Both the position numbers and the translations under genes were made by a program. This document shows positions 2,660 through 27,345 of a DNA stretch of 33,882 nucleotides, one piece after another. This DNA comes from a virus. Below the pieces are notes generated by a model. It ran no database searches. It saw only the letters and a list, made by a program, of their open reading frames with translations, and was not told the origin of the DNA. Within the stretch, counting starts at the first letter, position 1, and the number at the start of each line of letters is the position of its first letter. The stretch is from positions 1-33,882 of the IMG/VR virus record IMGVR_UViG_3300014720_000099; one strand, written 5' to 3'.

Positions 2660-3121
2660 ATGGCAGTAAATACAAATAAACGCATACCAGTAAAGTGGAT
2701 TAGAGACAAAGCTAAAGCAGCTTATGTAAAGCAAGCCAATTGCTATATTTGCAGTAGTCAAACAGACCTAGAGCTTCATCACCTTAACAGTATCACACAC
2801 CTACTTGAGGTGTGGTCGCGCAAGCACAACATTGATATTGGGTCAGATGAAGCTATCTTAGCAGTTCGTGACAGGTTTATTAGTGAGCACCATGTAGAAA
2901 TATATGACCTAGTCTATACACTCTGTAATAGACATCATGTACAGCTGCATGGGATCTATGGCAAATCGCCTAGTCCTAGCTCGGTAACTAAGCAGCAGAA
3001 CTGGATTGAACTACAGCGTAAAAAGTTGATTGGTGGTGGCGATACATTTCGCGGTAGTAGCTATGGCAACTATTTTGCTGAGTTCACAGGGGACTTATAT
3101 GGCGTTACAAAAGATAAGTAA
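2660..3121 (+). CDS. HNH endonuclease
   Basis: This 153-residue protein is an HNH-type nuclease. It has a CxxC zinc knuckle (C28, C31), the paired histidines of the first catalytic strand (LELHHLNS, H40-H41), and a second half LCNRHHVQLH (C89, N90, H92, H93, H97), which supplies further metal ligands and the catalytic Asn/His. HNH proteins beside terminase and portal are common in HK97-like phages, where HK97 gp74 assists cohesive-end cutting; such a role here is inferred. I chose ATG 2660 over the upstream TTG 2648 because GTGGA lies at ribosome-binding distance and the TTG adds only four residues. Its last 23 bases overlap the portal gene in another frame. Confidence 0.85.
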   Translation: MAVNTNKRIPVKWIRDKAKAAYVKQANCYICSSQTDLELHHLNSITHLLEVWSRKHNIDIGSDEAILAVRDRFISEHHVEIYDLVYTLCNRHHVQLHGIYGKSPSPSSVTKQQNWIELQRKKLIGGGDTFRGSSYGNYFAEFTGDLYGVTKDK

Positions 3122-4283
3122 CTGGATTCGCACAAAGTTAAATCCAGCACAGGCTAATATTAGCTACGACGAAGGCACAAATATAGGCAGTGTTAGTAGG
3201 ATCATAAACTACCAACAAGCCTTTAAAAACATAGACAGTGTTAATCGTGCAGTAAACATGGTAGTAAGTGCTTGTAGCAGCTTAGATTATGATATTAGGG
3301 ATAAAGTGCATGAAGGAGTTGTAGTTGGTGTTCGTCAAAAAACATTAAACACACTGCTTAATTTTCGTCCAAATCCTTATCAAAGTGCACAAGAATTTCG
3401 TCGAGAATTGTTCAAGGATTTATTGCTAGAAGGCAATGCATTTATACACTACGATGGTACTTTTATGTACCACTTACCTGCACAGCATGTAGAGATTATT
3501 AGCAGTACGCGCACATTTATTAGTGGATATAAATATAGCGGTGAAGTAACCTTTAACGAGCCTGATGTATTCTACTTTAAAGATATTAGCAGCGAAAGCA
3601 TCTATCGTGGGGCTACTAGACTGCAGGCGTGCTTAGAGAATATTAACATACTCTACAGCATGCAAGAGTTTCAGCAAAAGTTTTTTGATAATGGTACCGT
3701 ATTTGGATTGGTACTTACTAGTGAGAATACGCTATCGCAGGCTGCCAAGGATAAAACTGTGCAGTACTGGCAGCAGCGATATAATACTCGCAGTGGCGGT
3801 AAGCGACCAATTATCTTGGATTCGGGACTTAAACCGCAGCGATTGTCAGAGCAGAATTTTAAAGATCTTGATTTTGATGTAGCTATTCGCACACACAGTG
3901 AGCGCATAATGACAACTATAGGTGTTCCACCTATATTGCTAGCTGGAGGTAATAATGCTAACATTGCCCCTAATCTGCGCCTTTTTTACTTGGAAACAGT
4001 ATTGCCAATTGTTAAGCTGTATATATCCAGCTTGGAGCGATATTTTGGATATGACGTGGAAGCAATAACTAGCAGCGTTAGTGCACTACAGCCAGACGTA
4101 GGTGAAATAGCCAAATATCACAGCACACTAGTAAATGGTGGAATTATCACACCAAATGAGGCTAGACAAGAATTACGGTATCCTAAACTTGATGGTCAGG
4201 ATACTATCAGAGTACCTGCTAATATTGCAGGTTCAGCAGCCAATCCGTCAATAGGCGGTAGGCCACAAGCGGCTAAGGAGTAA
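3099..4283 (+). CDS. Portal protein, HK97 family
   Basis: This protein forms the dodecameric ring at one capsid vertex through which DNA enters and leaves and to which terminase and connector bind. The 394-residue protein shows HK97-type portal blocks: LFKDLLLEGNAFIHYDG near residue 105, the wing and clip region up to about 270, GVPPILLAGGNNANI near 275-290 with the following long helix, and a C-terminal NGGIITPNEARQEL block that is typical of the family end. The reading frame extends upstream to 3030, but ATG 3099 is preceded by AGGGGA at ideal spacing and gives the family's usual N-terminus, so I place the start there. This overlaps the HNH gene by 23 nt. The capsid fusion follows after 1 nt. 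Confidence 0.92.
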   Translation: MALQKISNWIRTKLNPAQANISYDEGTNIGSVSRIINYQQAFKNIDSVNRAVNMVVSACSSLDYDIRDKVHEGVVVGVRQKTLNTLLNFRPNPYQSAQEFRRELFKDLLLEGNAFIHYDGTFMYHLPAQHVEIISSTRTFISGYKYSGEVTFNEPDVFYFKDISSESIYRGATRLQACLENINILYSMQEFQQKFFDNGTVFGLVLTSENTLSQAAKDKTVQYWQQRYNTRSGGKRPIILDSGLKPQRLSEQNFKDLDFDVAIRTHSERIMTTIGVPPILLAGGNNANIAPNLRLFYLETVLPIVKLYISSLERYFGYDVEAITSSVSALQPDVGEIAKYHSTLVNGGIITPNEARQELRYPKLDGQDTIRVPANIAGSAANPSIGGRPQAAKE

Positions 4284-4284
4284 T

Positions 4285-6258
4285 ATGGACATTAAAAACA
4301 AGGTTATTTATTTTAATTCCAGGTTTACTACTAAGGCGGCCGATCAGGAAGACGATGCGATAACCATTGAGGGTTATGCATCTACTAATGATGTTGATAG
4401 AGTAGGCGACGTAGTACCTACTAGTGTTTGGGAAAAAGGTTTAAAGAACTACCTTAAGAATCCTATTATCCTAGCATACCACAATCATCAAATGCCTGTA
4501 GGTAAAATGGTTGAACACCGCGTAGATGAGCGGGGACTGTGGATCAAAGCCACTATCTCCGATGCTGCTGACAACGTGTATAAACTAGTTAGAAAAGGTA
4601 TCCTAAGTGCTTTTAGTATCGGGTTTAGGGTCAAGGATGCCGAGTATAACAGCGCCGCAGAAGTATTTTTAATCAAAGACCTAGAATTACATGAGATTAG
4701 TGTAGTTAGTATCCCAGCTAATCAAAATACACTTTTTAGTTTAGCCAAAGCATTTGAAAGTGCAGAGGAATTTGAGTTATTTAAACAGCAATTTGCAGTA
4801 AGTGATCCATCAGCTAAAGAGCTTGAGGATCACGCAGTAGCAAATAGCGCAAACGAGAGGAAATGGAACATGGATCCAAAAGAGTTAGAACTTATGTTAG
4901 CTAAAGCTACAGCAAATGCTGCTGAGCAAGCTGCAAAAGCTGTTATTGAAGCACAAACTAAAGCACAGGCTGAAAAAGCTGCTCAAGATAAGGCCGATGC
5001 AGAGCTACAGGCAAAAATTAGTGCTGCTGTTGCCGCAGTTAAAACAGTTGACACAGGTGCAGAGCGCCTATTAGCTGAAGTTGAAAAGCGTCTTAACGAG
5101 CAAACAGAAGCACATAAGAGCGCACTAGAAGGCCTAGAAATTGCTCTTAAAGAAAAGGCTGCCGAATTGGAAGCTATTCAAAAGAGCCGTATGCAGTTTA
5201 CAGATACTAAAGCTGGTGATCTAAGCTATGAGCAGAAAGAAAAAGCTGTTCTGTTAAGCAAAATCACAGGCAAGGCCATTGAAGATACCAGTTTTGGTCG
5301 TAATATCGTCACCAAGTATAGCAGCGATAACAATGCTACACCTGCTGGTGCTGGCGGTCAGTTTCGTGTATGGGCTGCTACCTGGGAAACAGAAGTTAGC
5401 ACAGCCATGGAAAATGAAGTACGTCGTCGCCTAGTAGTTGCTGGCACAATTCGTAGCGTTCCTATGACTAACCCAATTATGAAAGTGCCACTAAACCCAG
5501 AAGCAGGCTATGCAACTTGGGTTACAAACGCACAGTTTGGTACTAGCAACAGCAGCGGTGCAACAGCTACACATCGCCTAAAAGAGCTAACACTAAACAG
5601 TTTCAAACTAGCAACACGTGAGTACATTGCTTTTGAAGAAGATGAAGATAGCCTAGTAGCTATTCTACCAGTTGTTCGTGATGCAATGATCCGTCGCATG
5701 GCTAAGAGCGTTGATAAAGCAATGCTAATTGGTGCCGGTGCCGGTGCTGACCCAATCACAGGTCTAGCTACTTATGACGCTAGCAGTGCAGTTACTCTTG
5801 ATGTAAGCGATATTGCTGCTGGTACAGCAGGTGCTGGATTAACAGCTGCTAAGATTCAAGCTGCTCGTAAAGATCTAGGATACTGGGGTCTAGAGCCTAG
5901 TGAACTAGTTGTATTTGTAAATACACAAAGCTATTACGAGCTACTAGAAGATGCTAACTTCCTAACAGTTGATAAAGTTGGTGATCGTGCCACATTATTA
6001 ACAGGTCAAATTGGTTCAGTAGGTAATACACCAGTTATCGTTAGTGCTGAATTTGCTGCACCTACAGCAGGTAATGTTGCTGCACTAATTGTTAACCCAC
6101 GTAACTTTATTGCTGGTAACCATCGCGGTATGCGCGTAGATACAGATGACAATGTTGAAACACAGAGTCGTGTTCTTGTAGCTAGTATGCGTATGGCAAT
6201 GGCACAAATTAGCGACACAGACGGCGAAGCAGTTTCTGCTATCCGTTACGTAGAGTAA
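4285..6258 (+). CDS. Prohead protease-scaffold-major capsid fusion protein
   Basis: One 657-residue frame carries what HK97 encodes as two genes. Residues about 5-165 are an S78-type prohead protease: EGYAST near 30, probable catalytic H66 in AYHNH, probable catalytic S111 in FSIGF, and the LHEISVVSIPAN block (135-146). Residues about 195-305 are Ala/Glu/Lys-rich and strongly helical, like the scaffolding delta domain. Residues about 315-657 are an HK97-fold major capsid protein with a TREYIAFEEDED segment and an EPSELVVFVN segment. The protease would cut itself and the delta domain away during maturation. A strong internal start at 4870 may make the capsid part separately. The gene ends in a highly structured 79-nt gap. 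Confidence 0.92.
   Translation: MDIKNKVIYFNSRFTTKAADQEDDAITIEGYASTNDVDRVGDVVPTSVWEKGLKNYLKNPIILAYHNHQMPVGKMVEHRVDERGLWIKATISDAADNVYKLVRKGILSAFSIGFRVKDAEYNSAAEVFLIKDLELHEISVVSIPANQNTLFSLAKAFESAEEFELFKQQFAVSDPSAKELEDHAVANSANERKWNMDPKELELMLAKATANAAEQAAKAVIEAQTKAQAEKAAQDKADAELQAKISAAVAAVKTVDTGAERLLAEVEKRLNEQTEAHKSALEGLEIALKEKAAELEAIQKSRMQFTDTKAGDLSYEQKEKAVLLSKITGKAIEDTSFGRNIVTKYSSDNNATPAGAGGQFRVWAATWETEVSTAMENEVRRRLVVAGTIRSVPMTNPIMKVPLNPEAGYATWVTNAQFGTSNSSGATATHRLKELTLNSFKLATREYIAFEEDEDSLVAILPVVRDAMIRRMAKSVDKAMLIGAGAGADPITGLATYDASSAVTLDVSDIAAGTAGAGLTAAKIQAARKDLGYWGLEPSELVVFVNTQSYYELLEDANFLTVDKVGDRATLLTGQIGSVGNTPVIVSAEFAAPTAGNVAALIVNPRNFIAGNHRGMRVDTDDNVETQSRVLVASMRMAMAQISDTDGEAVSAIRYVE
4870..6258 (+). 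CDS. Possible internally initiated scaffold-capsid product
   Basis: In frame with the protease-capsid fusion, the ATG at 4870 (residue 196) has GAGAGGA (4855-4861) upstream, a good ribosome binding sequence. It sits exactly between the protease and the helical delta-like region. Initiation here would give a 462-residue protein made of delta domain plus capsid core, close in layout to a free-standing HK97-type capsid precursor. It would supply excess capsid subunit over protease, as the nested C/Nu3 arrangement of lambda does for scaffold. The ribosome binding site and frame are seen; the use of this start is inference. An ATG at 4863 is out of frame and is not used for this product. Confidence 0.45.
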   Translation: MDPKELELMLAKATANAAEQAAKAVIEAQTKAQAEKAAQDKADAELQAKISAAVAAVKTVDTGAERLLAEVEKRLNEQTEAHKSALEGLEIALKEKAAELEAIQKSRMQFTDTKAGDLSYEQKEKAVLLSKITGKAIEDTSFGRNIVTKYSSDNNATPAGAGGQFRVWAATWETEVSTAMENEVRRRLVVAGTIRSVPMTNPIMKVPLNPEAGYATWVTNAQFGTSNSSGATATHRLKELTLNSFKLATREYIAFEEDEDSLVAILPVVRDAMIRRMAKSVDKAMLIGAGAGADPITGLATYDASSAVTLDVSDIAAGTAGAGLTAAKIQAARKDLGYWGLEPSELVVFVNTQSYYELLEDANFLTVDKVGDRATLLTGQIGSVGNTPVIVSAEFAAPTAGNVAALIVNPRNFIAGNHRGMRVDTDDNVETQSRVLVASMRMAMAQISDTDGEAVSAIRYVE

Positions 6259-17499: not shown

Positions 17500-20400
17500 A
17501 TGTATGATAAATATATTGGAATACCATATAAAGAATATGGTAGAGATACGGATGGTATAGACTGCTGGGGATTAGCTCGCTTATTTTATAAACAAGAATT
17601 TAATATAGATCTACCTAGTTACAATACTGAAACGGTTCGTATATTCGACCCTAAACTGTCACAAAGTGTTAACGAATTTATTGGCAATTGGACTAAAACT
17701 GCTGCCCCTAAGCTTGGTGATTTATGCTTATTTAACATACTAGGTGAACCCACACATGTAGGCATTTATTTAGAAAACAGTCAATTTTTACATGCGCCCG
17801 AAGGGTACACTAGTGTAATTGAATCGTTTAAAAAACCTACATGGAATAAGCGACTAGAAGGTATCTATACATATACTCCAGTATCTACCGCCATTCAATT
17901 AACTGGTAGCCCACATCCTTTTAAAACAAGCAAAATAGTTGAATTTACACAGCCTGGTACAACTATTAAACAGTGCGTAGAATTTATTAGTGAAAAGTAC
18001 AAATTAAGCGAGCGCTTATTTAAGCAAATAAATGTGGCTATTGATGGAATACCAGTTAGTAAAAACGATTGGTCTACTACAATATTACGTGCTGGACAAC
18101 TAGTTACTTATAATATTATTCCTCAAGGCGGTGGCGGGCGAAGTATATTTAGAATGTTGTTAACGGTTGCATTAACAGTTTTTGTAGCTGTTGTTTTACC
18201 AACATTATTACCGGGTGTAGGTACACTTAAGTTAGCACTTGCTAGCGCAGCAGTTACAATAGCAGGCACCTTATTAATTGATGCGCTAGTACCTATTAGA
18301 CCACCTCCAGGGCCCGAAAATGTTGAAAGCGGCGCTCAATTAAACTTATTTACAGGAACCAGTAATCGCGGCAATCCGTATGGAGCAATACCAGTAGTAC
18401 TTGGTAGGGTTAGAATGACCCCGTATTTGGGATCACAGGCATATATAGATACTCAAACTAGTACTAGTTATATGCATATGCAACTAGTATGGGGGTTCGG
18501 CCCACTACTTGTAAATGATCTATACATAGGTGCTAATAAAATTGATAATTACTATCAGGAAACAACTGGTAGTGTGGTACCACTTCCTGTTACTGTTTCA
18601 GGTTTTACTGACACTAACGGTCAAGAAACAGAAACCGCAGGAATTCAACTATTTAATACGATGTACCCAAATATTGTGGAACAACAGTTTAGAAATGTTG
18701 AACTTGTTAATCAAGTAATAAATGGTACTACTGTTAACAATGAAGAAGTAATAACTTTTGCAGAAACAGCAGCTACAAAAGTAAATGCTGTTATTGGATT
18801 TCCAGAAGGTTGTAGAAAATTAGATAAAGAAACAGGTGGTAGCTCAAATGTTCCCGTTTACTTTACAGCAACTCTAGAACGAATAGTTAATGGCGTAGCA
18901 GAACCAAAGACATCATTTTCAACCAGTAATACTTTTACAGACGTAATTATATCGCCTAGTCAAGATTATCAGGACTATGATTATTCTAATCATAGTCCTG
19001 ATTATATTAGCTTTACAGCTTACTTTTATCAAAAAATTGCTTTTTGCATTACTCCTAATAATGGAATAGTTACTATTAGTGGTACACCTAGCGATAGACG
19101 AGATAATCCTACCTTAACTCAACAAGGTAAATTAACTAGCACAACTTTAGCTATATTATTATCTAGTGTTACAACTAATTTTTCATATGAGCCTATAATA
19201 CCAGTTGGATATAAAGTATTGTATAAAATAGAAGTATATGCTAATCAACTTCTATCTACAGAAAACGTAATACAGAATACTCATAGTTATAGTGGTTGGG
19301 TATTTACAACAACACAGCTAACTACGGCTCAGTCGTATTACGATTCAAATTATGGCGGATATTTTGAAGAAAATGTTCCAGGAAATCGATGGAATGTAAG
19401 TATTACTGCCGGTACTCTTGGTGCAGCGATTTCTGGCTCAGAAGGATATATTCCTACTGATCCTAACGGGGTATTACCTAGTAAATTTAATATATGGTCA
19501 ACGAGGAATTTAACTAATGTAACTACTAAAACCAATAGCGCCTGGGGAACTACTTTTGGTCCATACATGTCTTTTATGAATTCTTATGCGGTATGGAATT
19601 CTACTAATGCTAGCGTATTTGATCAAACAGTAACCGTTCAAACCCCCTATGCCGGAATATACATGATTGAGGCTAGCTTAGCTGGATATAATGGCTTTGT
19701 AGAGATCGGTAGTGGTACTACTAAACTTAGTTTAAACTATTCTGCGTTTGATACAAATGCACCACTTAGACAACCGTTTAGACTAGGTGCTCCTGGAAGC
19801 ACTAGTATAAGAGTTTATGCTAATAATAGTAATCCACCAAGTTCTGGTACAGCTGAATCAGGCATTGCAGTACGAATAACCTATCTTGTAGATAATAGTG
19901 TAAATTTTGTTCCAGGCAGTAACTACTTTATAGTTGGAGATAATGAATTTTACAACTATAAAGATGGATTTAACTATGTACTTAGTTGGAATAATTTAAC
20001 GCCTGGACAATATAGATTAAGAATTAAAAGAACTAGTACTAGTGATCCTGACATTCCTGGTGGAGGTCGCGGATATCAAGCAAGTTTTAAAACTTCGCTA
20101 ATATCTGCATCAGCTTTTAAAACAGGTACAACAATTGTTCCACCTAAAGGTGTTGGCATATGTAGAACAGCCGTTGTTTTAGAAAGCTCAGGTAAAACAA
20201 ATGGCAGCGTAGATGGAGTAAATGGATTAGTGCAATCACTAACCTGGGATTATGTATTAAATCAGCAAACTAACACTAAAGAGTGGATTAAAGGTTTTAC
20301 TTCAAATAATCCTGCTAGTTTATTTTTACACGTATTAACACATCCTGCAAATGCTTATAAAGTTGACTTTAACTCTATAGACATACCAACTATTAGTGAT

Positions 20401-22083
20401 TGGCATACATATTGTGCTACTGCTGGTACAATTAATGATAATGGAACTACCCGTATAAGTAGACCTCCACTAACTTATAATGGTGTAATTACCAATACAA
20501 CTAGTGTACTTAGTGTTTTGCAAGATATATGTGCAGCAGGTATGGCTAGCCCAGTATTTATAGACGGTAAATGGTCTGTGGTAATTGATAGACCTAGACC
20601 TTATGTAATACAGCACTTTACGCCACATAATAGTTGGGGGTTTGAAGCGGTAAAAAGCTTAGCTAAATTACCAGATGCTTTTAGAATCAATTTTCCAGAC
20701 GAGACTAATGCGTATCAACCAACAGAAGTGCTTGTAGCAAACTTTGATAAAACTACAAATAATGCTAATGTAATTGAAGAAATAAATTTACCAGGTATAA
20801 CTAAAATTGAACAGGTAAGATACTTTGCTAGATGGCATTTTGCACAATTACAATATAGACCAGAAACTTTTACAATTAACACAGATTTTGAATATTTAAT
20901 ATGTACTCGCGGAGATCGTGTAAAAGTTACACATGATGTTCCGCAGTGGGGATTAGCTACAGGACGTATTAAATCAATTAATGCTGGAAAAAATATACTA
21001 ACATTAACTGAAAATGTAACACTATTATCAGGCGTTAACTATCAAATTCGTATACGTACGGATAATATTACTGCTAGTGGTGGTGGTAGTATTGAGAGAT
21101 CTTTCACTGTCAATAGTGATGGACTTTATAATACGATTACATTATCAAGTGCCGTTAATAGTACAGTAAAAGTAGATGATTTATTTATGCTTGGAGAATT
21201 AAATAAAGTTACCCAAGATTTATTAGTTCAAAGTGTAGAACCTACAACAAATACGTCCGCTAAGATTACACTAGTAGCTTATAACGAAAGCTTATATAAT
21301 TTTGATTTTAGACCTTTTGAAGATAACAGTCCTTATCTACCTAGTTATACTCCAACCTTTGCAAAAAGAATTGGTAGTCAATTCGTTCAAACTACAATCG
21401 TAGGTTATCCCACTGTAAGTAATGTATTAAGCGGTGATCAGTTAACTGAAGAAATTGCAAGTGGTAATTATCAAAATGTTGTACTAATATCTTGGACAAA
21501 CTCTGCTGATTTGCCACTAACTGCACAAAAAGTAGAATTTCAAATTGTAAAAGGTGGAGAAAGCTTTACTGATACAGCTCAATCTGGTATTAATTTAGCT
21601 AATAAAGACGCCGGAAGCTATACCGTATATGGTTTAAGTAGTAATACTGTATACAAAGTGCGAGCTAGATATAGAAATGCTGAAGGAACTATATCAGGTC
21701 CGTGGAGCTCAGAGTATTTTCACACTGTACAAGGTAAATATATTAACTACTACAATGCAGCAACGTTAGTACTAGATTTACAAAATACGGCTATAATTGC
21801 AAAACCAACACCAGGTCAAGTAATACCAAGTAATTTTAGCCATTATGAATTTAGATTAGTTAAAGATGTTAACAATAATATAACTACTGATTTTTGGGAT
21901 ATTGGAACTACTTTTAAGTTTACTGGTGTTGAACAAGGATCCTATGATTTAAGGCAACTTAGTTTACCGCGTATAAGTAGTGCAGGTATTACCTATAGAG
22001 TAGCCTGTAGAGCAGTAGATAAAACAAATAACTATAGTTCTAGCAGTGTAATTGCATCTATAGTGGTTCAAACAATTAAGTAA
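17500..22083 (+). CDS. Tail-tip fusion: NlpC/P60 peptidase, gpI-like and gpJ-like host specificity protein
   Basis: Three lambda genes (K, I, J) appear as one 1527-residue frame. Residues 1-130 are an NlpC/P60 cysteine peptidase with catalytic C22 in GIDCWGL, H86 in PTHVGIYL and H98 in FLHAPEG, expected to cut peptidoglycan during entry. Residues about 140-210 resemble the ubiquitin-like part of gpI, followed by a hydrophobic hairpin at about 213-265. From about 275 (TGTSNRGNPYGAIPVVLGRVRM) the protein is a gpJ-like central tip, ending with fibronectin III-like modules (about 1320-1410 and 1420-1520). The C-terminus probably contacts the receptor or carries the next fibre. It follows the L-like gene by 2 nt. 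A perfect 16-bp inverted repeat lies at 18968-19002. Confidence 0.9.
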   Translation: MYDKYIGIPYKEYGRDTDGIDCWGLARLFYKQEFNIDLPSYNTETVRIFDPKLSQSVNEFIGNWTKTAAPKLGDLCLFNILGEPTHVGIYLENSQFLHAPEGYTSVIESFKKPTWNKRLEGIYTYTPVSTAIQLTGSPHPFKTSKIVEFTQPGTTIKQCVEFISEKYKLSERLFKQINVAIDGIPVSKNDWSTTILRAGQLVTYNIIPQGGGGRSIFRMLLTVALTVFVAVVLPTLLPGVGTLKLALASAAVTIAGTLLIDALVPIRPPPGPENVESGAQLNLFTGTSNRGNPYGAIPVVLGRVRMTPYLGSQAYIDTQTSTSYMHMQLVWGFGPLLVNDLYIGANKIDNYYQETTGSVVPLPVTVSGFTDTNGQETETAGIQLFNTMYPNIVEQQFRNVELVNQVINGTTVNNEEVITFAETAATKVNAVIGFPEGCRKLDKETGGSSNVPVYFTATLERIVNGVAEPKTSFSTSNTFTDVIISPSQDYQDYDYSNHSPDYISFTAYFYQKIAFCITPNNGIVTISGTPSDRRDNPTLTQQGKLTSTTLAILLSSVTTNFSYEPIIPVGYKVLYKIEVYANQLLSTENVIQNTHSYSGWVFTTTQLTTAQSYYDSNYGGYFEENVPGNRWNVSITAGTLGAAISGSEGYIPTDPNGVLPSKFNIWSTRNLTNVTTKTNSAWGTTFGPYMSFMNSYAVWNSTNASVFDQTVTVQTPYAGIYMIEASLAGYNGFVEIGSGTTKLSLNYSAFDTNAPLRQPFRLGAPGSTSIRVYANNSNPPSSGTAESGIAVRITYLVDNSVNFVPGSNYFIVGDNEFYNYKDGFNYVLSWNNLTPGQYRLRIKRTSTSDPDIPGGGRGYQASFKTSLISASAFKTGTTIVPPKGVGICRTAVVLESSGKTNGSVDGVNGLVQSLTWDYVLNQQTNTKEWIKGFTSNNPASLFLHVLTHPANAYKVDFNSIDIPTISDWHTYCATAGTINDNGTTRISRPPLTYNGVITNTTSVLSVLQDICAAGMASPVFIDGKWSVVIDRPRPYVIQHFTPHNSWGFEAVKSLAKLPDAFRINFPDETNAYQPTEVLVANFDKTTNNANVIEEINLPGITKIEQVRYFARWHFAQLQYRPETFTINTDFEYLICTRGDRVKVTHDVPQWGLATGRIKSINAGKNILTLTENVTLLSGVNYQIRIRTDNITASGGGSIERSFTVNSDGLYNTITLSSAVNSTVKVDDLFMLGELNKVTQDLLVQSVEPTTNTSAKITLVAYNESLYNFDFRPFEDNSPYLPSYTPTFAKRIGSQFVQTTIVGYPTVSNVLSGDQLTEEIASGNYQNVVLISWTNSADLPLTAQKVEFQIVKGGESFTDTAQSGINLANKDAGSYTVYGLSSNTVYKVRARYRNAEGTISGPWSSEYFHTVQGKYINYYNAATLVLDLQNTAIIAKPTPGQVIPSNFSHYEFRLVKDVNNNITTDFWDIGTTFKFTGVEQGSYDLRQLSLPRISSAGITYRVACRAVDKTNNYSSSSVIASIVVQTIK
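18968..19002. repeat. Perfect 16-bp intragenic inverted repeat
   Basis: ATCAGGACTATGATTA (18968-18983) is the exact reverse complement of TAATCATAGTCCTGAT (18987-19002), with a TTC loop. It encodes the Asp/Tyr-rich stretch DYQDYDYSNHSPDY in the gpJ-like part. No T-run follows. Confidence 0.93.
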
Positions 22084-22092
22084 GGGTTGTCC

Positions 22093-25000
22093 ATGGCAGC
22101 GTTTTTATATTCAGGTATAGATTATTTAGTACTATCTATAGATACACCATATGATAATATTAATGATCCTCTAACATTGCGAGATGACTTAGCTAGTGTA
22201 AGAGTTTGGTATAGTACTACTCAGGGATTTAATGCACTAACTGAAGGCACTTTAGTTTTTAATGGGTTAAGCTTAAGCATAACAATAACAGGCTTAATAC
22301 CCAATACCAGATACTATGTTAGATATGCACTAGTTTCAGCCATAGATCCCACCACTTATACTATTAGTGATGAGCTAACTGAAATTACTGATGCCGAACC
22401 GAGTGATGGCAAAACAGTTTCATTAGCACCTACATATAATGCTTTTGTTTATACTGCTGCTGGTACAACTCCAAGTCCATCAAGTAGCACTATTACAGCT
22501 TCTGTGTTTAATTTTACCACTCAAAGTCCTTATTTTGAGTGGTATATTGATGGAGTACTAGTAACAGATAATAACACTAGTACATTAACTTACACTCCAA
22601 AAAGTAGCTACTCTAACATGCCTGATACTATTAGTGTTAAGGCTAGAGACGGCACTAGCACATCTCCGATAGTCGCGGAAGATAGCTTAGTTATGTTTGG
22701 GGTAATACCGGGTAGTAGTGCAATAACTATAGTTAATTATAATCTAGCACATAGTTTATTTACTACTAGTGCTGGAGTTGTAACCTATACTGGTAGTGGT
22801 ACAGCTATACAAGTACTTGAAGGTAGTACATATTTAAATGTTGATAATAGTGCTACGCCAGCTAACGGAACTTTCAAAGTTACAGCTGCCGGCGAAAACA
22901 ACTATATAACTCCTAGTACAACTATAACTACTGTTGGCGGTACAACAGTACAATATGGTGATCATAGTAATATGACACAAAATAGTGCTAGAATTATTTA
23001 TACTATTACTGTAAAAGATAGTGGTGGTACAACAAGGAGTTTTATAAGCTATCAAAATTTTACTAAAAGCATAGAGGGAGCTAGTGCGCAAGTAATTACT
23101 TTAAGTTCTTCAGCTCTTGCTTTTATATTTCCAGATAGTACGTCTATAACGCCTAGTTTTCCACCTGATATTACATTTACTTTAAAAAGACAAAATACTA
23201 CTGAAACCGCAACATTTACTGCAATTGCATACAGTGCATCAGATACTTCACTAGGTTCACTAACTTCTAGCTTAACTGGTACAGGGGATAGTAGAACTAT
23301 ATCCGCCTCTAACTTTAATAGTTTAGGCGGCACTATTACTAGGTATATTAAAGTTACAGCTACAGTTGGAAGTTTAAGCGATACAGTAACTATTGCCAGA
23401 GGTGACAATGGAGGAGATGCAGTTTCTCATCTAATGACTAATGAAAGTCATGTAGTAGCTGCTGATAGTGCAGGAACAGTAGCTAGTTTTAGCGGCGCTT
23501 TAACATATGGAGCTATATTTAAGGGCATAGTTAATGAAACTATGAACTGGACTATTACTAAAACAGATGGTTCTGGTATTACCACAAATATAATTACTCC
23601 TACTTTAATTAGTACTACAGGTACAATCGGAAGTATAACTGGTACTGGTCCCTGGACTGCAACTATTAGTGGTATGAGTAGCACCAGCGGTTTAACGGTT
23701 GGAGATGTAATATCTGCCATAGAAAATAGTACTGGTAGACTATACACTGGTAGCCCTACCAATATTGCTGTAACTAGTATAGTAAATGCAACGTCTATTA
23801 CATATACTGTTACTGGTGGTACTACTCCTGTAGCTGGACCAATTGGTGGATTAGCAAAAGGGAATAATAATTATACACTTACTCCTACATCTTTAACAGC
23901 AGATGCTTCTACAACTACAGTTATTGGTACGAAAAACTCACTGACAAGCACTAAAATATACTCTTTAAGTAAGAGTAAAGCAGGAGCTAAAGGTGATCGA
24001 GGTGATCGAGGTGATCGAGGTGATCGAGGTGATGATGGAAAGGTAGTATATTCAGCAAGAGTTTGGTTACAATCAGCTAGTGCCCCAGCAGCACCTAGTG
24101 GAGGAAATTTTAACGCGTCTACTGGAGTACTAACAGCTCCAAGTGGTTGGTTAACTACTCAACCTGCTACAACAACTACTCCTACTTATGCTTCAGAGTA
24201 TGTGTTTGTAGTTACACAAGGTAGTACTACAAATGCAGGCGGGACTTGGAGTACGCCATTTATTGATGCCGTACGAGGAGCAGACGGTAGCACTCAAGAA
24301 AGAGTAGAGCTATATCTAAGTACTGCAGATGGCAGCACTCCTATCGCACCCAGTAGCGTATTGTATACAATTAGTACAGCTACTTTAGGTACGCAAACAG
24401 GTGGCACATCAGGCTGGTCATTAACTATGCCAGCTATACCAGCATATCCTGGTGCAGTTTTTATGACCACAGCTGTAGCTAGCAGCAGCACACCAGCAAG
24501 TCCAATAACTCTTAACAGCTGGTCAACAGTTGTAATGGTAGCTAGACAAGGCGCATCAGTAACAGGAGCAGAAGGTATACGTAGTCTTGTTGCATATATA
24601 GTACGTAATCAAACCGATGCTGCATTAACTACTGCACCTAGTAATACAATTGGAGCAACTGCGCCGGCAAGCTATAGTTTAACAGCTAGTTCAGTAAGTG
24701 TAGGACAAGTTTTATGGTATACTTTTGGCAGGTATAATCCAAACGCTAGTGCTATAGACGGAATACCTGCTAATACTACAGTATGGAGCGTACCAGTAGC
24801 TGCTAGCGTATTTCAAGATATACGTAGTGATAACTATAATGGGCCAAATCCTCCAACTAGCGCAAATTTTGGAACTCTAGGATACTATTTAAGAAGAAGT
24901 ACGGGAGAAATATTTGCTACTAGTGCATATCTACGTGGTCAATTAGTAACGGGTTCAAGCGGTTCCCAAAGAATCGAAATTAATACTAGTTCTAGTAATA

Positions 25001-27345
25001 AGGTAGAAGTCTATAATAGTAGTAATCAAAGAGTAGCATATTTTGGTGGTTTAGGTGCTACTTTTGATGGTTTATTAAATTTTACTCCAAGCTTTAATAC
25101 TATTGGTAATATGATTAGTTCATATGGTATATATGGTTCTACTCCAACTATTCAGACTACTGCTACAAGACCCTCTGGTATTATAAGTCAGCTTGCGTAT
25201 TTATATTTTGGTACTAATACTACAAGATTAACATTAACGTCTCCATCTTTTGCTAATTCAGTATGGGCTAGTACTTTTTTAAATTATTATACTGGTTTTC
25301 CTGGTAGTGGATCTTTTCTATCTGGAGCAGTACTTGGAGATAGTTCAACAACTGATCCTGTAATATTTGGTGATGGTACTACATATAATAATACAGGTCT
25401 TGTGCTGTGGCCAGGAAATACTGCATATTTTGGATTACTTGGTATGCGAGACGAAAGCCGAGGTTTTAAAGCTGCAGGATTTTTTGCAACAACTGGAGAT
25501 ACACTAAGTGTTACATTAGCAGATGCACCAGCAGGCAGTGGAACTAATGGTGGTTATGCCATTAACGTTCGCAGTGGCCAAATAAGATATGGCAGTGTAG
25601 TAATAGGAACACCTCCTAACGATGCTGCTCAAGTATTAACTGGTAACGGTAGTTGGACCGATAGTCCAAGGTTAGTAAATCCAGCGGCTACTGGTGGATA
25701 TTATGGTGTTGGTGTTAATATTGTTAATGGACAGCCCGTTACAGTTACAACTAAGATACTAGATTATGACCATGCTGCGCCTGCAGCAGTAGTTGGTAGA
25801 GAGATTGGCAGCGGTAGCACAGCAGGTGGCCTAGTTGTTGGTGCAAATATTATTAGACCACTACAATTACGTGGTACAGCAGTTACTGATCTTGGCATTA
25901 CTGGCGGCACTGCTGGTACTGATAATACTTTTAGAAACTTTGGCTGGGGCGGATATAACATTAGTCCGCCGCCTGGCACAACTACTACATACTTACGTGG
26001 TGATGGTACTTGGTCTACTGTAACTACTGAAAGTGGTGGAACAGTATCAAGTGTAGGTATTAGCAGCACAACCTTAACTATTGCAGGTACTAATCCGGTT
26101 ACAAGTACAGGAACTATAACAGTAAACTTAACAAATACAGCAGTTACAGCTGGCAGTTATACAAATGCTAGTATAACAGTAGATGCTCAAGGCAGAATTA
26201 CTGCTGCTAGTAGTGGATCCGCCGGAGGCGTTACAAGTATTAGTGGTACTAGTAACCAAATTTCCGCTAGTGCAAGTACCGGAGCAGTTACACTTAGCCT
26301 ACCACAAAATATACACACTAGTGCAACACCACAATTTGGCCAATTAAGTTTAAATGGTAGTATTATTGGTGGTAGCCAATTAAGCGTTACCAGTAGTACT
26401 AGTAGCGGAATCGTACTAAAGAAAACAAGTTATGCCAGTTCCAGCATTACAGCATGGGATGATAGTACATTCTATGGTAATAATGTATATTTAAACGCTG
26501 GTACATGGACTTTTAGTGCAAAAGCCGGAAGTACTTATTGCTCAATTATAGATCAATTTGGTACTAGTGCAGCAGCCGGCGTAAACTGGTATTGTAGTAG
26601 CAATAGTGGTAGTAGCTGGAACTTATCAAATGGTGTATTGTTGTGGGACGAAGCCGGCCGTTGGCGTGCTAAAGTATTTAGTGGCATTGTATTTAGTAGC
26701 AGCGGACTAGGTGATACGGGATCAGTAACATGGGATAATAGTGCTGGTAGATTAATAAGTTACAATACATTAGGAGCTGCTGCAGCCGGTCAAATAATGT
26801 ATATTGGAACTACTGCAGTAGCTATTAATAGAGGTACAGGAGCATTATCACTAACTGGAGTAAATATTGATGGTAGTGCTGGCAGTGCTAGTAGTGCTAC
26901 TACTGCTACTACAGCAACTAACTTAAGTGGAGGAACTGTAAACGCAACTACTGGTAGTTTTAGTGGTGCAGTTAGTACAGGAGCTCTAACAGTAACAGGT
27001 GCAATAACTGCTACTGGTAATATTACTGCTTATTATTCTGACGATAGGCTAAAGAATAAGTTAGGTAATATACAAAATGCTGTAGAAAAAATCACAAAAT
27101 TAAATGGATTTTATTATACGGCAAATAGCACCGCACAAGCTCTAGGATATGATATTCGCGTTGAAGTGGGTGTTAGTGCACAAGAAGTAGAAAGTATACT
27201 TCCAGAAATAGTTGTACCAGCTCCAATTGATTCTAAATATAAAACAATACATTATGAAAGATTAATACCTTTATTAATAGAAGCAATTAAAGAACAGCAG
27301 TTACAAATAGATAAACTTACTAAACTTGTAAATGAGAGATCGTAA
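22093..27345 (+). CDS. Long tail fibre with collagen-like repeat and S74 chaperone domain
   Basis: This is a 1750-residue trimeric-type fibre. Residues about 1-110 include a fibronectin-like unit (NTRYYVRYALVS). Further beta modules follow, then a collagen-like Gly-X-Y stretch at about 630-650 made of GDR repeats, more beta repeats typical of phage fibres (GTVSSVGI, ISGTSNQISAS, LPQNIHTSATPQFGQL), and a C-terminal S74 intramolecular chaperone (about 1645-1750). That domain starts at YYSDDRLKN, where self-cleavage before the Ser normally releases it after trimer folding, and ends in a coiled coil. I use ATG 22093, which has AAGGG at 6 nt, rather than TTG 22087, which would touch that site. The stop overlaps the next start as TAATG. 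Confidence 0.9.
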   Translation: MAAFLYSGIDYLVLSIDTPYDNINDPLTLRDDLASVRVWYSTTQGFNALTEGTLVFNGLSLSITITGLIPNTRYYVRYALVSAIDPTTYTISDELTEITDAEPSDGKTVSLAPTYNAFVYTAAGTTPSPSSSTITASVFNFTTQSPYFEWYIDGVLVTDNNTSTLTYTPKSSYSNMPDTISVKARDGTSTSPIVAEDSLVMFGVIPGSSAITIVNYNLAHSLFTTSAGVVTYTGSGTAIQVLEGSTYLNVDNSATPANGTFKVTAAGENNYITPSTTITTVGGTTVQYGDHSNMTQNSARIIYTITVKDSGGTTRSFISYQNFTKSIEGASAQVITLSSSALAFIFPDSTSITPSFPPDITFTLKRQNTTETATFTAIAYSASDTSLGSLTSSLTGTGDSRTISASNFNSLGGTITRYIKVTATVGSLSDTVTIARGDNGGDAVSHLMTNESHVVAADSAGTVASFSGALTYGAIFKGIVNETMNWTITKTDGSGITTNIITPTLISTTGTIGSITGTGPWTATISGMSSTSGLTVGDVISAIENSTGRLYTGSPTNIAVTSIVNATSITYTVTGGTTPVAGPIGGLAKGNNNYTLTPTSLTADASTTTVIGTKNSLTSTKIYSLSKSKAGAKGDRGDRGDRGDRGDDGKVVYSARVWLQSASAPAAPSGGNFNASTGVLTAPSGWLTTQPATTTTPTYASEYVFVVTQGSTTNAGGTWSTPFIDAVRGADGSTQERVELYLSTADGSTPIAPSSVLYTISTATLGTQTGGTSGWSLTMPAIPAYPGAVFMTTAVASSSTPASPITLNSWSTVVMVARQGASVTGAEGIRSLVAYIVRNQTDAALTTAPSNTIGATAPASYSLTASSVSVGQVLWYTFGRYNPNASAIDGIPANTTVWSVPVAASVFQDIRSDNYNGPNPPTSANFGTLGYYLRRSTGEIFATSAYLRGQLVTGSSGSQRIEINTSSSNKVEVYNSSNQRVAYFGGLGATFDGLLNFTPSFNTIGNMISSYGIYGSTPTIQTTATRPSGIISQLAYLYFGTNTTRLTLTSPSFANSVWASTFLNYYTGFPGSGSFLSGAVLGDSSTTDPVIFGDGTTYNNTGLVLWPGNTAYFGLLGMRDESRGFKAAGFFATTGDTLSVTLADAPAGSGTNGGYAINVRSGQIRYGSVVIGTPPNDAAQVLTGNGSWTDSPRLVNPAATGGYYGVGVNIVNGQPVTVTTKILDYDHAAPAAVVGREIGSGSTAGGLVVGANIIRPLQLRGTAVTDLGITGGTAGTDNTFRNFGWGGYNISPPPGTTTTYLRGDGTWSTVTTESGGTVSSVGISSTTLTIAGTNPVTSTGTITVNLTNTAVTAGSYTNASITVDAQGRITAASSGSAGGVTSISGTSNQISASASTGAVTLSLPQNIHTSATPQFGQLSLNGSIIGGSQLSVTSSTSSGIVLKKTSYASSSITAWDDSTFYGNNVYLNAGTWTFSAKAGSTYCSIIDQFGTSAAAGVNWYCSSNSGSSWNLSNGVLLWDEAGRWRAKVFSGIVFSSSGLGDTGSVTWDNSAGRLISYNTLGAAAAGQIMYIGTTAVAINRGTGALSLTGVNIDGSAGSASSATTATTATNLSGGTVNATTGSFSGAVSTGALTVTGAITATGNITAYYSDDRLKNKLGNIQNAVEKITKLNGFYYTANSTAQALGYDIRVEVGVSAQEVESILPEIVVPAPIDSKYKTIHYERLIPLLIEAIKEQQLQIDKLTKLVNERS
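22515..22544. repeat. 11-bp intragenic inverted repeat
   Basis: TACCACTCAAA (22515-22525) pairs perfectly with TTTGAGTGGTA (22534-22544) across an 8-nt loop inside the long fibre gene. No T-run follows. Confidence 0.8.
23992..24036 (+). repeat. 9-bp tandem repeat encoding collagen-like GDR units
   Basis: Four exact copies of GGTGATCGA (23992-24027) are followed by a fifth that ends GAT instead of CGA (24028-24036). They encode four GDR triplets and GDD. Copy changes by slippage would keep the frame and alter fibre length. Confidence 0.95.

Follow-up and report, generated by a model that had tools for sequence, protein, structure and literature searches.

We analysed a window of 33,882 bases, an IMG/VR virus record, in which a freshwater phage carries an S78 prohead protease, a delta-like scaffold and an HK97-type major capsid protein in a single gene. 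The preliminary description had placed all three in one frame, which is confirmed by a 657-residue translation that is stop-free throughout and by its Pfam domains. The protease part scores 73.9 bits against PF04586 (cut-off 21) and 83.9 bits against TIGR01543 (NCBIfam proheadase_HK97; curated cut-off 59), and the capsid part scores 32.5 bits against PF05065 (Phage_capsid; E = 7e-8, cut-off 24.2). The candidate catalytic residues His66, His68 and Ser111 of the protease are invariant across 24 relatives, and its ELHEISVVS segment is mostly invariant in the same set.

The region between the two domains, read here as delta-like, aligns with the N-terminal region of a T5-type capsid precursor. Residues 200–634 of the fused gene align with the T5-type capsid precursor 8ho3 (458 aa) from its residue 20 onwards (E = 3e-44), and residues 361–630 align with the 299-aa T5 capsid chain 5tjt, residue 361 corresponding to 5tjt residue 9. 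Judging from where this second alignment starts, the mature capsid N terminus would lie near residue 353; the delta-like region is presumably cleaved off the capsid. An AlphaFold model of the full fusion places long helices at residues 198–251 and 259–302 of the delta-like region with low confidence (mean pLDDT 44), and we draw no fold claims from it.

The Shine–Dalgarno sequence of the full-length fusion overlaps the end of the portal protein gene, and the portal stop codon TAA (4281–4283) is followed by a single base and then the fusion ATG, an arrangement that is the same in relatives. Because the portal stop sits between this Shine–Dalgarno sequence and the ATG, translation from the fusion start is probably coupled to that of the portal gene. 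Elsewhere in the genome, a group 1 glycosyltransferase gene (27–833) lies directly upstream of the gene that precedes a large terminase-like gene, a 1,527-aa gene (17500–22083) is another fusion, of an NlpC/P60 peptidase domain with a Phage-tail_3 (tail tip) protein, and a fibre-like protein of 1,752 aa (22087–27345) ends in an S74 endosialidase chaperone domain.

Within the fused gene, the sequence GAGAGGA is separated by 8 nt from an in-frame ATG, Met196, and both lie on the domain border exactly where the preliminary description had put them. Taken from the window sequence alone, this pairing is weak evidence for an internal start: an equally strong Shine–Dalgarno sequence precedes 8 of the 109 in-frame internal ATGs in the structural genes of the window and 26 of its 580 plus-strand ATGs. 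An out-of-frame ATG at 4863, between the Shine–Dalgarno sequence and Met196 (AAATGGAACATG), is the start of a 13-codon frame and a possible competitor for initiation.

Table 1 Features of the fused gene and its surroundings (window coordinates)
Feature	Position	Strand	Length or residues	Basis
Portal protein gene	3102–4283	+		Phage_portal PF04860, E = 2e-52
Shine–Dalgarno sequence TAAGGAG of the full-length fusion	4274–4280	+		Tight spacing (3, as aligned by the model)
Fused gene: S78 prohead protease, delta-like scaffold, HK97-type major capsid protein	4285–6258	+	657 aa	
S78 prohead protease domain	4327–4740	+	residues 15–152	PF04586, E = 2e-20; TIGR01543
Fewest synonymous changes in the whole gene	4771–4881	+	residues 163–199	42 disjoint pairs
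Predicted hairpin around TCAGCTAAAGAGCTTGA	4802–4833	+		Inner stem nearly invariant in relatives
Internal Shine–Dalgarno sequence GAGAGGA	4855–4861	+		Sequence; AGG conserved in relatives
Internal in-frame start ATG (Met196)	4870–4872	+		Sequence; ATG conserved in relatives
Predicted second product, capsid precursor (delta-like region and capsid)	4870–6258	+	462 aa	T5-like sizes; 8ho3 alignment
Delta-like scaffold region	4873–5340	+	residues ~197–352	Alignment to T5 structures; end presumptive
HK97-type capsid domain	5389–6204	+	residues 369–640	PF05065, above gathering score

Conservation and predicted strength of the internal start

Scans of IMG/VR yielded 227 loci of the window gene's family, of which 214 cover the border and 153 are non-redundant; a scan of genome contigs returned no relatives. 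The border frame is unbroken in 214 of 214 loci. All 153 non-redundant fused relatives keep the border ATG together with an AGG within positions −16 to −5, in a sample partly conditioned on the border peptide, because some search patterns included it; many relatives deviate from the exact peptides at variable residues.

The residues encoded over the Shine–Dalgarno sequence vary between clades (EE, KE, RK, RE and others) and the AGG persists. Since these residues change while AGG and ATG stay, constraint on the protein alone is insufficient to account for the signal. Across 84 sequences, AGG occupies codons 192–193, just before Trp194, in 98.8%, compared with at most 15.5% (median 0) at 22 other adjacent pairs of Glu, Lys, Arg or Gln codons. 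Glu and Lys codons at residue 192 have G as third base in 99% of cases, ranking first of 58 such columns (median 0.24). Lys is written AAG and Glu GAG at this site, against an A-ending preference, and Arg is written AGG, the codon of only 49 of ~1,800 Arg residues. Trp194 and the MDPK that begins at the internal start are nearly invariant in 24 relatives; one clade has Met at the Trp194 position, with the Shine–Dalgarno sequence still present. By these sequence comparisons, the internal start signal is conserved well beyond chance.

The RNA around the internal start is predicted to be open. Its Shine–Dalgarno region and AUG have unpaired probabilities of 0.77 and 0.88; the corresponding values are 0.47 and 0.43 for 1,041 other in-frame Met codons, and 0.52 and 0.49 for the fusion start. 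We combined Shine–Dalgarno pairing, spacing and local folding in an initiation-energy model, a rough approximation of our own to the Salis type. In the window, Met196 scores 1.7 kcal/mol, ranks first of 146 in-frame internal ATG, GTG and TTG codons in long genes, and is better than the majority of listed gene starts, whose median is 4.3 kcal/mol. Family means are 1.0 kcal/mol for the internal start, 4.3 for the fusion start and 14.4 for other in-frame Met codons, none of which (0 of 444) matches the internal-start mean.

Shuffling synonymous codons and scoring the Shine–Dalgarno sequence only gave no significant result gene by gene (P = 0.06 for the window gene) or for 25 named fusions combined (P = 0.85), an outcome that follows from the preference of the linker residues themselves for purine-rich codons. 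We therefore rely on conservation across relatives, the codon-pair controls and the folding-inclusive model. Under the last of these, synonymous shuffles seldom yielded any codon that equalled the actual top site in strength (0.03 for the window gene), and most, not all, of the other fused genes behaved in the same way.

The model bears on the earlier suggestion that the locus makes few fusion molecules and many capsid subunits. The internal start is predicted to be stronger than the fusion start in 71 of 85 family members, with a median ratio of 3.7 in this crude model, which makes an excess of capsid over fusion plausible; in the window gene, however, the two starts are nearly equal (1.2 kcal/mol for the fusion and 1.7 for Met196), so the excess is not predicted from the window sequence alone.

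Split relatives and other fused families

The closest named relatives of the fused gene are T5-like phages such as DT57C and Ceto, which have the same order, domains and matching sizes in two genes, with an intervening stop and without a fusion product. At 195 and 462 aa, the two would-be products correspond in size to their separate proteases (202–210 aa in Ceto and DT57C, 191 aa in D233) and capsid precursors (458–465 aa). The capsid Met of Ceto and DT57C aligns no more than 2 columns from Met196; the offset is 13 columns in Vibrio phage D233 and 22 in Mcat14.

A comparison of fused with split relatives, which the preliminary description had put forward as a check, was run in a second family, unrelated to that of the window, whose member PAJU2 ORF003 is annotated as a protease–capsid fusion. 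Its IMG/VR members are 69 fused loci and 10 split ones. Most of the fused loci have a Shine–Dalgarno sequence and an ATG near residue 197, and the border ATG has the best Shine–Dalgarno sequence among all in-frame ATGs in 44 of 53. The split capsid genes (L283, L288, L290, L303, L309, L312, L313, L324, L325 and L327) begin at the counterpart of Met197, with N termini such as MKTYAEQI, MNLAEQI and MKTFAEQV and, in L288, a TTG start codon. One in-frame stop alone divides the protease and capsid frames in L288, L313, L324 and L325.

We then asked where the strongest start falls in 26 named fused genes from ~9 families, irrespective of any chosen border position. The end of the protease is defined in 21 of these genes, and in 17 of the 21 the strongest such in-frame start lies within 130 codons after it, compared with 4.6 expected (P = 8e-9, uncorrected for relatedness). 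A separate ranking of border codons used codons picked partly by their Shine–Dalgarno sequences, so the position-blind test is the one to trust. In most of the actinobacteriophage, PAJU2 and MD8 fusions examined, a strong in-frame start lies on the border or close to it. MD8 gp5 (L417, 1872–3953), a ClpP-type protease–capsid fusion, has its strongest in-frame internal start at residue 220, just past the protease.

In a large AU-like fused family, a second Shine–Dalgarno sequence and start lie at the scaffold–capsid junction, within the motif QEG...M[STP]RN[VL]F. By motif search it is present in 52 of 80 sequences, 48 of them with ATG; examples are residues 306 in L155, 308 in L163, 329 in L164, 241 in L165, 239 in L168 and 256 in L169. 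As read from the sequence, this junction start may give a capsid form that lacks the scaffold.

With some reserve, we favour the view that internal initiation at the border is a general and repeatedly evolved rule for the fused protease–capsid genes of tailed phages, so that these fusions would be two-product genes in which the initiation ratio sets the protease per head, and the AU-like junction start may add a further product.

Proposed mechanism and its alternatives

Nucleotide conservation, RNA accessibility, the initiation model and the fused-versus-split comparison in the PAJU2 family together give strong support to the functional internal start that had been suggested earlier. The window gene is very probably a two-product gene, yielding the fusion and, from an internal start that is real and used, a free capsid precursor. 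Ribosomes starting at 4285, coupled to translation of the portal gene, would make the 657-aa protease–delta–capsid fusion, and those starting at 4870 would make the nested, in-frame 462-aa delta–capsid precursor that forms the bulk of the procapsid. Fusion molecules would co-assemble through their own delta–capsid part and so carry the protease inside the procapsid, in an amount set by the ratio of the two start sites; the packaged protease would then cut away the delta regions and itself. The sequences show the single frame, its domains and the conserved start signal; we infer both products in this scheme, and likewise their relative yield, co-assembly and cleavage.

It is unlikely that the fusion is the only product, with each capsid subunit bearing its own protease and excising it before or during maturation. 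The frame open in every locus covering the border indicates that the fusion is produced, or at any rate kept, and a conserved SAKxL[DE] ahead of the border could be a cleavage site. Yet production of the fusion alone leaves unexplained the retention of AGG and ATG in the DNA where the encoded residues vary, the local openness of the RNA and the same-place capsid starts of the split PAJU2 relatives. It would also load every subunit with a protease, in contrast to HK97 and D3, which pack ~60 proteases per 415 capsid proteins and ~90 per prohead, respectively (PMC12749128); phages with separate genes thus pack far less protease than capsid.

Similarly doubtful is that capsid comes mainly from a separate transcript, driven by an internal promoter in the 3′ end of the protease region, with Met196 as the start of that transcript's product. 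The low synonymous variation at residues 163–199 would then mark a promoter or RNA element, and this constraint does extend ~100 nt upstream of the start: in 7-codon windows the synonymous-change z score is −5.9 to −7.5, in a stretch that reaches the internal start and continues past it. The plus strand from 4470 to 5968, however, yielded no sigma-70-like sites. Nor does the hairpin ~45 bases upstream of the internal start favour an RNA element. Its hairpin-forming sequence, TCAGCTAAAxxGCTxGA, is nearly invariant in relatives and 92% of cells are paired, but the relatives have neither covariation nor an excess of pairing over shuffles, so we do not claim the structure; Rfam has no matches in the window. 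Such a promoter would in any case be compatible with two products.

Least probable is that the border is kept for protein reasons, serving as a linker or as a cleavage motif with W[ND]MDPK at its end, and that the Shine–Dalgarno sequence is a by-product of Glu, Lys and Arg codons: the near-invariance of Trp194 and MDPK and the frequency with which purine-rich linkers yield such sequences by chance in shuffles speak for it, but the clade-by-clade change of residues under a constant AGG, the codon choice against the A-ending preference and the clade that replaced Trp and retained the signal speak against it.

Comparison with known systems

Hundreds of phage records annotate fused protease–scaffold–capsid genes as encoding a single fusion protein, which leaves unexplained how one protease per subunit is avoided. 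Should these genes have two products, many major capsid proteins would need re-annotation, N termini from mass spectrometry and cryo-EM would become correctly readable, and heterologous capsid expression would begin at the right codon. They would also offer a testable case of one stretch of DNA under selection in two roles, protein linker and ribosome-binding site, for which the PAJU2 family supplies fused and split variants.

Protease–scaffold–HK97-type-capsid fusions have been described in actinobacteriophages (AM, AU, AN, AX, FE, EE, EL, CW, DM and RRH1; PMC5513430, PMC7302621), and protease–capsid fusions in MD8 (PMC8508860) and thaumarchaeal proviruses (PMC6563490). The actinobacteriophage, PAJU2 and MD8 fusions, like the window gene, combine protease, scaffold and HK97-type capsid within a single gene; unlike in our two-start reading, they are annotated as single products. 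The portions of the open-licence literature available to us contain no mention of an internal start in fused protease–capsid genes, and earlier reports may exist elsewhere.

In lambda C/Nu3, a protease gene has an in-frame internal start with its own Shine–Dalgarno sequence and yields a shorter assembly protein. Nested in-frame scaffold starts are also known in the protease genes of Mu and Mu-like phages, for example Val177 in PaMx73, with the Shine–Dalgarno sequence ACGAGGA (PMC4378225). The window gene shares with lambda C/Nu3 and Mu I/Z a conserved in-frame internal start with a Shine–Dalgarno sequence inside a protease gene. In lambda and Mu, however, only scaffold is made from the nested start and a separate gene encodes the capsid protein, whereas the nested frame of the window gene spans the capsid domain to 6258 and would encode the whole delta–capsid precursor. 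Fusions and nested scaffold starts are thus known; what would be new here is nested in-frame initiation with a whole capsid precursor as the inner product. By analogy only, the proposed logic resembles that of retroviral Gag and Gag-Pol, in which a minority fusion uses a shared structural domain to bring its enzyme into the particle; here the enzyme is N-terminal, and internal initiation, rather than frameshifting or readthrough, would determine the ratio.
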